From Bacillota bacterium (GTDB lineage: Bacteria; Bacillota; Negativicutes; Sporomusales; CTSoil-080), in assembly GCA_017889635.1 (NCBI GenBank), contig JAGGAC010000028.1, forward strand, positions 1-40,164: a stretch of DNA of 40,164 nucleotides, read 5' to 3'. The position numbers and the translations under genes are program-made. The notes beneath the pieces are model-generated. The model did not search any database and was not told the DNA's origin. It was given only the letters and a program-made list of their open reading frames with translations. Every line of letters begins with the position of its first letter. The stretch's first letter is position 1. Below are positions 21,302-31,466 of this stretch, in pieces.

Positions 21302-21358
21302 ATGAGGGACTTAAGGAATATAGTGTTTTATAATAAACACGCAGGGGGTCAACATTTG

Positions 21359-21652
21359 ATGGGTGATGACACCAAGCTAATTGAAGAATTGCGTTTGCGT
21401 GTACGTGAACTAGAGAATAAGGTAGATGCTTTACGCGTTGGCAGGCGCGTACTAATGAATCTTATTGAAGGGCTGGAAGCGGAAAAGCGTGAACAGCTAG
21501 CAAATTTGACAACCCAGAATGAAAGGCTACAGAAAAATAACTTTCGGTATGCAAGAGCGATTATGTCCAGAGATGTACGAATTAATCAGCTTGAGGCACA
21601 ACTTGCTAAAATAGCAACCGGCAAAAAGATGCTTGGTAACACTTTTACTTGA
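21359..21652 (+). CDS. Small coiled-coil protein of unknown function
   Basis: A 97-aa protein that is almost entirely heptad-like: long runs of Leu, Glu, Lys and Arg from residue 6 to 88 predict a continuous coiled coil. It has no membrane segment or catalytic motif. The product resembles generic DUF-type coiled coils such as ZapA-like or DUF3450-like proteins, but no family is claimed. Start ATG 21359 is favoured by AGGGGGT (21343-21349); an in-frame ATG at 21302 directly after the PHP gene lacks such a site, and TTG 21356 is also possible. It is the last gene of the pepA operon. Confidence 0.6.
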   Translation: MGDDTKLIEELRLRVRELENKVDALRVGRRVLMNLIEGLEAEKREQLANLTTQNERLQKNNFRYARAIMSRDVRINQLEAQLAKIATGKKMLGNTFT

Positions 21653-21653
21653 C

Positions 21654-21680
21654 AACACCTGTAAAGGTGTTTATTTTTAT
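21654..21680 (+). terminator. Intrinsic terminator of the pepA operon
   Basis: AACACCT (21654-21660) pairs with AGGTGTT (21665-21671), loop GTAA, followed by TATTTTTAT. A TTGACA at 21649-21654 with TATTTT at 21672-21677 overlaps it and might be a promoter for the next gene; this is weak. Confidence 0.75.
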
Positions 21681-21729
21681 GTATAGCTACTATTCTTAGT
21701 TTTGTTTTAATTGTTAGGGAGGTTGCAAA

Positions 21730-22554
21730 ATGGATGTCATCGCTTTGGTCGGATCAAGTGGAACCGGGAAAAGCCACCGTGCTTTGATTGTTGCTCATGA
21801 GAATAACGTCGATGGCATCATTGATGACGGGTTGCTAATCAAAAATAGTAAAATTATTGCCGGATATTCGGCGAAAAAGGAGCCCAGTAAAATTCGTGCT
21901 GTTAAACGGGCGATATTTATGGACCAGGATCATGCGTCAGAAGTGCGGGAGGCAATAACCGCAATTAAGCCTAATCGGCTGTTAATACTGGGGACGTCTG
22001 TCAATATGGTAGAGAAAATAATTGAAGCACTTAATTTGCCGCCGCTGGGTAAAGTGATAAAAATCGAGGACATAGCCACCAAGGCGGAAATCGCTAAAGC
22101 GCGTGAAAGCAGGTTAAAAGAAGGTAAGCATATTATTCCTGTGCCTACAATTGAGTTAAAACCTCATTTTTCAGGTTATCTCATTGACCCTTTGGAAATA
22201 TTTTTTAGAAAACCACAGACTAAACGCCGGAAATTAGGTGAAAAGTCTATTGTTCGGCCAACATTTAGTTATTACGGTAAACTTCTGATTTCTGATGCCG
22301 CAATTGCCGCAATTGTTGACTATGTGGCAACCAGTGACCTTGCTATTCCGCGGACAGGCCCTATAAATATTAAATACTCCCGTGACAGGGAAAAAGGAAT
22401 TTCTATTTCCATGGATGTAACTATTAAGTACGGTCAACCGCTTAGAGAAATACTCTATAACGCCCAACTGAGGGTAAAAAATATGGTCGAATACATGACT
22501 GGGATGACTGTAAAAGAAGTAAACATCGAAGTTAAGCGCCTAAGCATTAATTAA
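21730..22554 (+). CDS. P-loop / Asp23 fusion protein
   Basis: A 274-aa protein joining two unrelated domains. Residues 1-160 form a P-loop NTPase-like domain with Walker A GSSGTGKS at 8-15 and a Rossmann-like continuation (NRLLILGTSVNM, about 82-93). Residues about 185-270 resemble the Asp23/Gls24 (YloU) alkaline-shock family, with the typical YGQPLREILYNAQ and YMTGMTVKEVNIEVK blocks. Such fusions are known in Clostridia and Negativicutes but have no assigned function; a role in envelope stress sensed through nucleotide binding is only a guess. Start is ATG 21730 after GGGAGGT. It appears to be a single-gene unit. Confidence 0.75.
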   Translation: MDVIALVGSSGTGKSHRALIVAHENNVDGIIDDGLLIKNSKIIAGYSAKKEPSKIRAVKRAIFMDQDHASEVREAITAIKPNRLLILGTSVNMVEKIIEALNLPPLGKVIKIEDIATKAEIAKARESRLKEGKHIIPVPTIELKPHFSGYLIDPLEIFFRKPQTKRRKLGEKSIVRPTFSYYGKLLISDAAIAAIVDYVATSDLAIPRTGPINIKYSRDREKGISISMDVTIKYGQPLREILYNAQLRVKNMVEYMTGMTVKEVNIEVKRLSIN

Positions 22555-29639: not shown

Positions 29640-29715
29640 GGTCGGGGTGACAGGATTCGAACCTGCGGCCTCACGGTCCCGAACCGTGCGCTCTACCAAG
29701 CTGAGCCACACCCCG
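29639..29715 (-). tRNA. tRNA-Pro (anticodon CGG)
   Basis: On the minus strand the acceptor stem CGGGGTG/CACCCCG (29715-29709 with 29649-29643) closes a full cloverleaf. The anticodon stem CACGG/CCGTG holds the loop TTCGGGA, so the anticodon is CGG, reading CCG. The T arm contains GTTCGAATC. The discriminator A is 29642 and CCA is encoded at 29641-29639. It is a single tRNA gene with its own promoter and a terminator that begins at its 3' end. Confidence 0.96.
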
Positions 29716-29943: not shown

Positions 29944-31466
29944 TTAGTTATGTTCGCCTATAGTGGCTATAGATACTGTAGGCGAAATTCTAATTTCAAA
30001 GATCCTAGACCAAGGCAAGCAGGCATTAATATGAAAATTGGAGATCAAAATACGTTCGCCGCTTTCAATAAGAATAGGATGCGAATATAGCGACTGATGA
30101 TATAATCTGTATGCGCGGCCTGATAATAGAGTTTGTACCAGTCTGTTTACTGAGTAATATTTAGAGTCAAGGTTATTCTTGTCAACATTAAGCCGCTGTA
30201 GTATAGCTGCTATGTATGGCTGGATGTCCTTTTCGTAGAACCAATCGTCAAGAAATCTCGCAGTCAAAAATTCAATGTTATTTTTATAGACTGCAAGAAC
30301 ATGCGGTGAAGATGTATTGACGTGAAGTGCTTGGGTAAAGAGTGTTCCTTCGGTTAAGGCTGATCCAATCGAGTTGCTGGTAGTGTTCCAACCAGCATAA
30401 GCTGCAAGGCGAATAATAGGGGCGTCTTTGTTTATGAGCAAGGGTAATAATGTATCACGGCCGTCAAATCTATTGCTTGAACGAACAGTATAAAATCTGC
30501 TTTGTCGCGATCAAAAGTTTGCTTGCCACCTATAATGCCAATTTTTTCCTCAACAGTTTTAGCTACAGAGTGAGGCATATAGGGCATGATGATTTTGGCG
30601 GTGTCAGCATCAGAGTACTGGACAAAAATTTGCGGTTTGTGATTGGTTAGTTTTGTGACAATACGTCCGGAATGTTTATCAACAAAATATTCTAGCTGCC
30701 TTTTAATAATGTTTGGCAAGCCAAAAGGTTGACAATCATCCTGGCCAATGATTAAGCCGCTGATAATGCCTTTTTCGGTCATTTTAATTAGTTCGATACT
30801 AACTTCGGCGGATTTTTGATTGCGTTTTAGATAATTGTCGATGACATCAATGGGGATGCTTTTTTCTAATAATTTAAGTTCGGCGATATCGTTAGGGTTT
30901 TCGAATGTAAGTACTTTATCTTTCAATACGGAATATTTTTGCATGTCAAGTTGATAGGGGGCGTTGGCGTTACTATCGGCGGTTAATAGTCTGGGAATAA
31001 TGTTAAAGACGTATAATTCGACGCTTGGGTTAGCTTGGTGACATTCTTCGAGGAGAGTCAGAGTGTCAGCGATGTCTTTTTGTGTTCCACGGCTAGACCG
31101 TGAGGCAATCAGTCCGCCATGGATCAGCATATCAGTGGAAATAATTGCTGCGTTGGCTCCTTGGAGTGCTTGGCGAAGCCAAGTTCTTAGCTCGACTATT
31201 TTAGCAGGGGTTTGATAATTATCTAATAGTTCCAGTGGTGGGGTGAGTATAGATATATTGGCTAGAGCAGCTAATTTTTCGACGAATTGGATACACGGCG
31301 GGCGGCTGTCTAATGGAATAAGTACAATAGTAAAGCTAGGCTTGGCCACAGAATCAAATTGGACAGTCTTGGCGGAATGCTGTAGACTGAACTCAGTGTA
31401 TAGATTGAAGGCCGTTTCGGCCAGTATAAATATTAATGCCAGGCATAACACTAGTCGTTGGAGCAT
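29944..31466 (-). pseudogene. DUF4127 family protein gene with one frameshift
   Basis: Two overlapping frames encode one DUF4127 protein: the front (344 codons, 31466 to 30432) and the back (open to 29944). The front has an uncleaved-signal-like segment (residues 5-20), the family blocks VLIPLDSRPPC, DMLIHGGLIASR and IIGQDDCQPFGLPN; the back has AAYAGWNTTSNSIGSAL. At 30466-30468 the minus strand reads GCAATAGATTTGACGGCC; one extra T would continue as AIDFDGRDTLLPLL into the back frame, giving about 507 aa. This indicates a single-base deletion, a sequencing error or, less likely, programmed frameshifting. DUF4127 has no known function. Start CAT 31464-31466 has AGAGGTG upstream. Confidence 0.85.

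Follow-up and report, generated by a model that had tools for sequence, protein, structure and literature searches.

The window analysed here, a 40,164-nucleotide stretch of DNA from a Bacillota bacterium of the class Negativicutes (contig JAGGAC010000028.1), harbours a gene for a protein in which a P-loop-type domain precedes an Asp23 domain, and the two-domain family to which this protein belongs is real, is wider than first noted and was not seen split in the sample (Table 1). The invariance of residues in the P-loop half makes ligand binding by that half likely. The original prediction had described the protein as such a fusion, known from Firmicutes and without an assigned role, and its account of the architecture, of the spread in Firmicutes and of a role not being found holds, whereas the protein proved to represent a separate, mostly single-copy family that was never split among the genomes sampled. 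The nucleotide-dependent switch on an Asp23 assembly which was envisaged at the same time is, judged from the sequences, a reasonable hypothesis.

Table 1. Positions of the fusion gene, its parts and its flanking elements in the window
Feature	Position	Strand	Remarks
Terminator-like hairpin between upstream coiled-coil gene and fusion gene	21654..21671	+	
AGGGAGG, likely ribosome-binding site	21716..21722	+	assigned from sequence
Two-domain CDS, 274 aa (P-loop domain, linker, Asp23 domain)	21730..22554	+	ATG start
P-loop domain, residues 1-145	21730..22164	+	mean column conservation 0.62; holds all 17 invariant residues
Walker A GSSGTGKS, residues 8-15	21751..21774	+	G8, G11, G13, K14, S15 invariant, 65/65
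D32-D33-G34 after predicted second strand	21823..21831	+	invariant, 65/65
S47-A48-K49	21868..21876	+	K49 invariant
G88-T89-S90 after strand 3, usual Walker B acid position	21991..21999	+	S90 invariant
R128 to P137, putative lid-like segment	22111..22140	+	R128, H134, P137 invariant
Linker EKSIVRPxFSxxGK, residues 170-186	22237..22287	+	mean conservation 0.64
Asp23 domain, residues 187-271	22288..22542	+	Pfam match at 22369-22536
Long hairpin, near-perfect palindrome spanning fusion stop codon	22530..22572	+	-24.6 kcal/mol, z -6.2

Architecture and distribution of the fusion

The C-terminal part of the protein is Asp23-like, as had been proposed: PF03780 matches residues 214-269 (E 3.3e-11; 44 bits, cut-off 28), and in profile-profile comparisons residues 170-274 matched the alignments of AmaP (28 rows; 98.96%, E 8.3e-18, 104 columns) and of stand-alone Asp23/YqhY-type proteins (31 rows; 98.86%, E 3.5e-17, 106 columns), the similarity beginning at about residue 171-176, so that the whole domain is covered. 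The N-terminal half gave no match to either the AmaP or the YqhY-type profile (below 1%). Ten other members were compared with the PF03780 cut-off, of which seven lie above it and L095, L080 and L077 below; members under the cut-off still align end to end, and 62 of the 65 aligned members match PF03780 at E ≤ 0.1. The Walker A motif is present in 65 of 65 members, and the order of domains, a P-loop-type domain followed by a true Asp23 domain, was as first described.

The structure models rest on three sequences, namely the window protein and its relatives L004 and L005. In these predictions the Asp23 half is modelled as strand-helix-strand-strand-helix-strand, with ten-residue mean pLDDT values of 66-84 from residue 191 onward in a whole-protein model that has a mean of 52.7, and it resembles the C-terminal domains of the CDF transporters MamM and YiiP (Z 11.0, rmsd 1.9, 76 residues, 12% identity), a fold common to many proteins and one that implies no shared function. 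Structure prediction of both domains, which had been suggested as a check, yielded an Asp23 half that fits a known fold, whereas the N-domain modelled alone stayed at low confidence (mean pLDDT 57.9). Adenylate-forming enzymes occupied ranks 1-10 when the whole model was searched and were rejected as meaningless for the N-terminal half, the model being of low confidence.

The fusion protein is present in 57 of 60 related genomes, the window's own included, although the copy in G047 is a contig-edge fragment. The genomes without it are G001 (98% complete) and G002 (65%), both from the window's family, and G051 (74%); its absence from G001, a sister genus within that family, looks real, since YqhY- and AmaP-like matches are present there. 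Across the phylum, a profile of the N-domain gave matches at E ≤ 6.3e-55 in 126 of the 298 genomes sampled, the window's own among them, each in an open frame that is 269 aa long or longer, and the same 126 genomes also match the full-length query, the sequences of G170 and G202 being cut at a contig end; the fusion, which the original prediction had described as seemingly known from anaerobic Firmicutes, is thus common in Firmicutes. The profile found no match in 171 of the 298 genomes and in G076 a match of just 30 residues within a 44-residue frame, while an N-domain lacking the Asp23 half was not found among the 126 strong-match genomes. The 171 genomes without the gene, together with G001, indicate that many cells manage without the fusion. 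Asp23 domains in general occur in 292 of the 298 genomes.

Named relatives include a Negativicutes MAG (L004, 80% identity), a Pelosinus MAG (L005, 74%) and Monoglobus (45%), and the family is mostly single-copy, with two copies in G209. Four genomes of family f37 have longer open frames of 489-557 aa; in L106 (f37, with L301 and L302 alongside) the protein measures 357 aa from the aligned start, which indicates a C-terminal extension. A gene-calling artefact or mis-joined ORFs were rejected, as relatives are of similar length and contain both halves, and so was a chance motif, as the fusion protein is conserved over many families. A mobile or phage gene was also rejected: no relative turned up in one scan of viral contigs and no family in PHROGs, and the one plasmid record to match is a 285,641-base Monoglobus replicon.

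The P-loop half and its putative ligand site

The protein N-terminus, MDVIALVGSSGTGKS, is a complete Walker A motif, and GxxGxGK[ST] was present in all 65 members of the alignment, for which 101 of 111 retrieved sequences had been retained, after removal of nine duplicates and of L033, a contig-end fragment, and then reduced to 67 representatives at < 72% identity, L004 and L005 kept regardless and L052 and L106 left out; alignment A4 comprises 37 rows. Across the 65-member alignment, whose most distant sequence is 33% identical to the window protein, 17 positions do not vary (G8, G11, G13, K14, S15, D32, D33, G34, K49, A61, L85, S90, M93, A124, R128, H134 and P137), and every one of them sits in the P-loop half, where they may line a single pocket. 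Mean column conservation is 0.64 for the linker and 0.62 for the P-loop domain, as against 0.42 for the spacer before the linker and 0.36 for the Asp23 domain, which suggests that selection acts most strongly on the linker and on the putative pocket; the lesser conservation of the Asp23 half fits a mere scaffold. The distances of the two halves correlate across 61 non-redundant members (Spearman 0.60, the highest value in permutations being 0.28), a correlation that would also come from common descent alone.

The Walker B pattern hhhh[DE] was found after strand 3 in none of the 65 members (residues 76-95), residues 84-90 being without an acid in every member and residue 91 acidic in 27. A site without this pattern is more suggestive of a kinase or transferase than of an AAA+ or ABC motor, and in the comparison with AAA+/ABC/RecA-type motors the ABC_tran match stays below its cut-off (15.6 against 25 bits). 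D32 and D33 come after a hydrophobic stretch and might stand in for the missing acid.

The window protein matched no P-loop family above the cut-off in Pfam or NCBIfam, and none at E 0.1 in PHROGs. This and the absent Walker B pattern would suit a degenerate, purely structural P-loop, folded as before with ligand binding and turnover lost; such an explanation is very improbable, given a complete Walker A motif and twelve further residues that are invariant in members down to 33% identity, and given that D32-D33 could replace the Walker B acid. Across the 65 members, matches at E ≤ 0.1 were to ABC_tran (53), AAA (41), IPT (32), AAA_33 (25) and miaA (13), and L077 lies above the IPT cut-off (26.2 against 20 bits); matches to CrcB and ribosomal-protein profiles were weak.

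Four P-loop families were compared by profile alignment, AAA_33 from 7 rows and APS kinase from 12 badly aligned rows (Neff 1.4). MiaA aligned at 93% over 156 columns, cytidylate kinase at 93.7% over 33, AAA_33 at 81% over 35 and APS kinase at 62% over 23, and in global mode MiaA ranked first with 96% as compared to 76, 51 and 12%. The full-length alignment with MiaA and the isopentenyl transferases (PF01715, PF01745) follows the same motif order, D...SAK/TAK...GTS/GGT, yet its significance is lost without Walker A, at E 0.12 for residues 24-166 and 0.077 for residues 24-105, with six reversed or shuffled controls at 0.18-0.57. None of the four families was significantly similar to the N-domain without Walker A (E ≥ 0.077), the alignments of AAA_33, cytidylate kinase and APS kinase included, and kinship with MiaA/IPT was rejected, as it rests on that motif. 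A MiaA of their own was present in 33 of 33 genomes searched.

The N-domain model consists of predicted alternating strands and helices. Its top Foldseek matches were APS kinase, gluconate kinase and thymidylate kinase, none at E ≤ 0.001, and the best 50 rows were mostly P-loop proteins, chiefly kinases, with five lactate dehydrogenases; VIA-align retrieved polynucleotide, adenylate, phosphofructo-2- and gluconate kinases together with GPN and SRP GTPases, at Z ≤ 3.9. With the gluconate, APS, polynucleotide and adenylate kinases the domain thus has Walker A, a predicted strand/helix alternation and structure matches in common. Scores as weak as these may reflect just a common arrangement, and the P-loop fold claimed for the N-terminal domain is supported, not proven: an invariant Walker A and mostly P-loop structure matches favour it, while the model is weak and its scores are low. 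The structure matches speak against no particular P-loop family. Of the two conditions named beforehand as refuting the first description, the one on the Asp23 half is thereby disposed of and the one on the P-loop fold largely, though not wholly. Overall, the N-domain is probably a P-loop domain of kinase- or transferase-like type.

A metabolic enzyme, that is, a small-molecule kinase or a prenyl-type transferase for which the Asp23 domain is only a dimerisation or docking part, would account for much of this and is nearly as likely as the switch mechanism presented below, though itself tentative. The confinement of all 17 invariant residues to the P-loop half, the lack of hhhh[DE] after strand 3 in 65 of 65 members, the low-scoring best matches to APS, gluconate and polynucleotide kinases, and the MiaA profile alignment, which sets SAK near TAK and GTS near GGT and leads in global mode, all argue for such an enzyme; the loss of significant similarity to the four families once Walker A is removed argues against it, as does the finding that no metabolic operon is conserved with the fusion over 123 loci.

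Asp23 proteins, neighbouring genes and the candidate switch

Three Asp23 matches occur in the window's genome, corresponding to a stand-alone form, AmaP and the fusion. The stand-alone form, whose Asp23 domain is homologous to that of the fusion, has 131 aa and no P-loop and lies on another contig than the fusion, and AmaP (NF033218, 112.8 bits against 55) comes after it. This pair is preceded by a SpoIIIAG-like gene (143 bits, cut-off 147.7) and followed by NusB; NCBIfam gave no name to the gene between SpoIIIAG and Asp23, which we take to be spoIIIAH, nor to the gene before nusB, presumably DUF2273. By profile score the Asp23-like domain of AmaP is the nearest (105 against 97 for YqhY), whereas the window protein falls below the NF033218 cut-off (18.6 against 55 bits) and has no clear membrane segment of the kind that AmaP carries at its N-terminus, its best 19-residue hydropathy being 1.28; a value of 1.6 is reached by 6 of the 65 members. 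No Asp23 domain other than that of the fusion was found in G341 (99% complete), so that the fusion cannot depend there on YqhY or AmaP; a single Asp23 domain was also found in G078, G166 and G201, whose genomes are 78-81% complete. Coexisting with the classic pair in the window's genome and standing alone in G341, the fusion neither replaces that pair nor always needs it. The proposed survey of fused and stand-alone forms accordingly confirmed a widespread fusion, but one that makes up a two-domain family of its own beside the usual Asp23-AmaP pair.

According to published work, Asp23 proteins are widespread and highly expressed and B. subtilis YqhY influences acetyl-CoA carboxylase and lipid synthesis (PMC5437119), the S. 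aureus Asp23 protein forms filaments and has AmaP as its tie to the membrane, its molecular function being called unclear in 2020 (PMC6954212), Asp23 has been discussed together with vesicles (PMC11350273), yqhY is essential in C. difficile (PMC12548448), and the partners of PpiB include YloU and YqhY (PMC6459899). It follows from the filaments and the AmaP tie (PMC6954212) that an Asp23 protein can serve as a module of assembly. The literature searched, mostly without subscription papers, contained among the matches listed nothing on a P-loop-Asp23 protein, in agreement with the earlier statement that the fusion has no assigned role. The Monoglobus homologue WP_158648977.1 is named 'Asp23/Gls24 family envelope stress response protein' in RefSeq, an annotation gap in that the name refers to its less conserved half.

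The mechanism that we prefer, at somewhat less than an even chance, is one in which the assembly of the Asp23 domain responds to the binding or turnover of a ligand in the P-loop site. The invariant Walker A, D32-D33, K49, S90, R128 and H134 would form a pocket for a nucleotide or another phosphorylated ligand, while the C-terminal Asp23 domain would be a module for assembly of the kind found in YqhY and AmaP; binding or turnover would be signalled through the conserved linker, and the signal would change the pairing of the Asp23 domain with itself or with other Asp23/AmaP proteins, possibly at the inner face of the membrane. What the comparisons show is the architecture, the conservation, the constant union of the two domains in the sample and the missing Walker B pattern after strand 3; the single pocket, ligand binding, coupling, membrane site and partners are our inference. 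Once its ligand is found, the strictly conserved putative site would open at least one Asp23 protein to functional tests. The most useful facts are the invariant residues and the missing Walker B pattern after strand 3, both of which point towards a site of kinase or transferase type.

Gene neighbourhoods were compared at 123 loci with the focal gene in each, using homemade ORF calling in which genes < 75 aa were ignored and small genes are missed. In the window the fusion is preceded by RNase Y, SpoVS, an M17 peptidase and a PHP protein and followed by a class III aminotransferase; a PHP-type gene lies within two genes upstream at 21 of 123 loci. At 12 loci a DUF3870-type gene, absent from the window and confirmed by Pfam at L042 3632-3994, lies directly downstream. 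In Monoglobus pectinilyticus NZ_OY725741.1 (L286 7346-8870) the homologue starts 4 bp after the redox repressor gene rex, and rex-like genes were also seen 2 to 5 genes upstream of the homologue in L319, L330 and L082.

The commonest neighbour is a dnaD-like gene, which lies within 5 genes of the fusion at 34 of 123 loci, from 14 of the 73 family labels. At 9 loci from 4 families it follows immediately on the fusion's own strand, with gaps of -41 to 27 nt; at 22 it lies upstream, on the opposite strand and 1 to 4 genes away; and at 3 it takes a remote form. A helicase-loader-like AAA gene is near the fusion at 30 of 123 loci. All 4 representatives compared from the dnaD cluster match Pfam DnaB_2 ('Replication initiation and membrane attachment'), and all 3 from the loader cluster match an IstB-like ATPase; the other dnaD- and loader-like names rest on clustering. 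These neighbours, and the occurrence of the three dnaD arrangements in three separate clades, would be expected of a membrane-linked replication-initiation factor acting with DnaD and a DnaC/DnaI-type helicase loader; the fusion is nevertheless unlikely to be one: at 89 of 123 loci no dnaD-like gene lies beside it, and these include all loci in the set that come from the window's class, while the clades were separated by a quick tree that carries a long-branch warning for one of them. Many other neighbours likewise recur in separate parts of the tree, so that dnaD is no outlier and its adjacency is a lead only.

The preferred switch mechanism can be widened to include this lead, the fusion then being a private P-loop class whose ligand cycle switches an Asp23 assembly at the inner face and, in some clades, ties a DnaD-helicase-loader apparatus to the membrane. 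This wider form is improbable; if true, a private P-loop class combined with an Asp23 switch would constitute a nucleotide- or metabolite-gated regulator linking cell state to the envelope or to replication.

Flanking DNA and other observations in the window

The scan for terminator-like sites returned 2, as compared to an average of 3.2 in shuffled sequence, and the palindrome over the fusion stop codon is without a T-run after the hairpin. The small gene before the fusion gene (21302-21652), a coiled-coil gene by our reading, matched no family above cut-off, and in the first set of loci compared its counterpart was seen only in L044 and L045. Elsewhere in the window, a tRNA gene at 29642-29715 (-) is the sole Rfam match above the gathering score, and a DUF4127 gene at 29944-31466 (-) is present as two overlapping ORFs, which match profile positions 1-310 and 361-488 and are probably the result of a frameshift, either in the gene or in the assembly.
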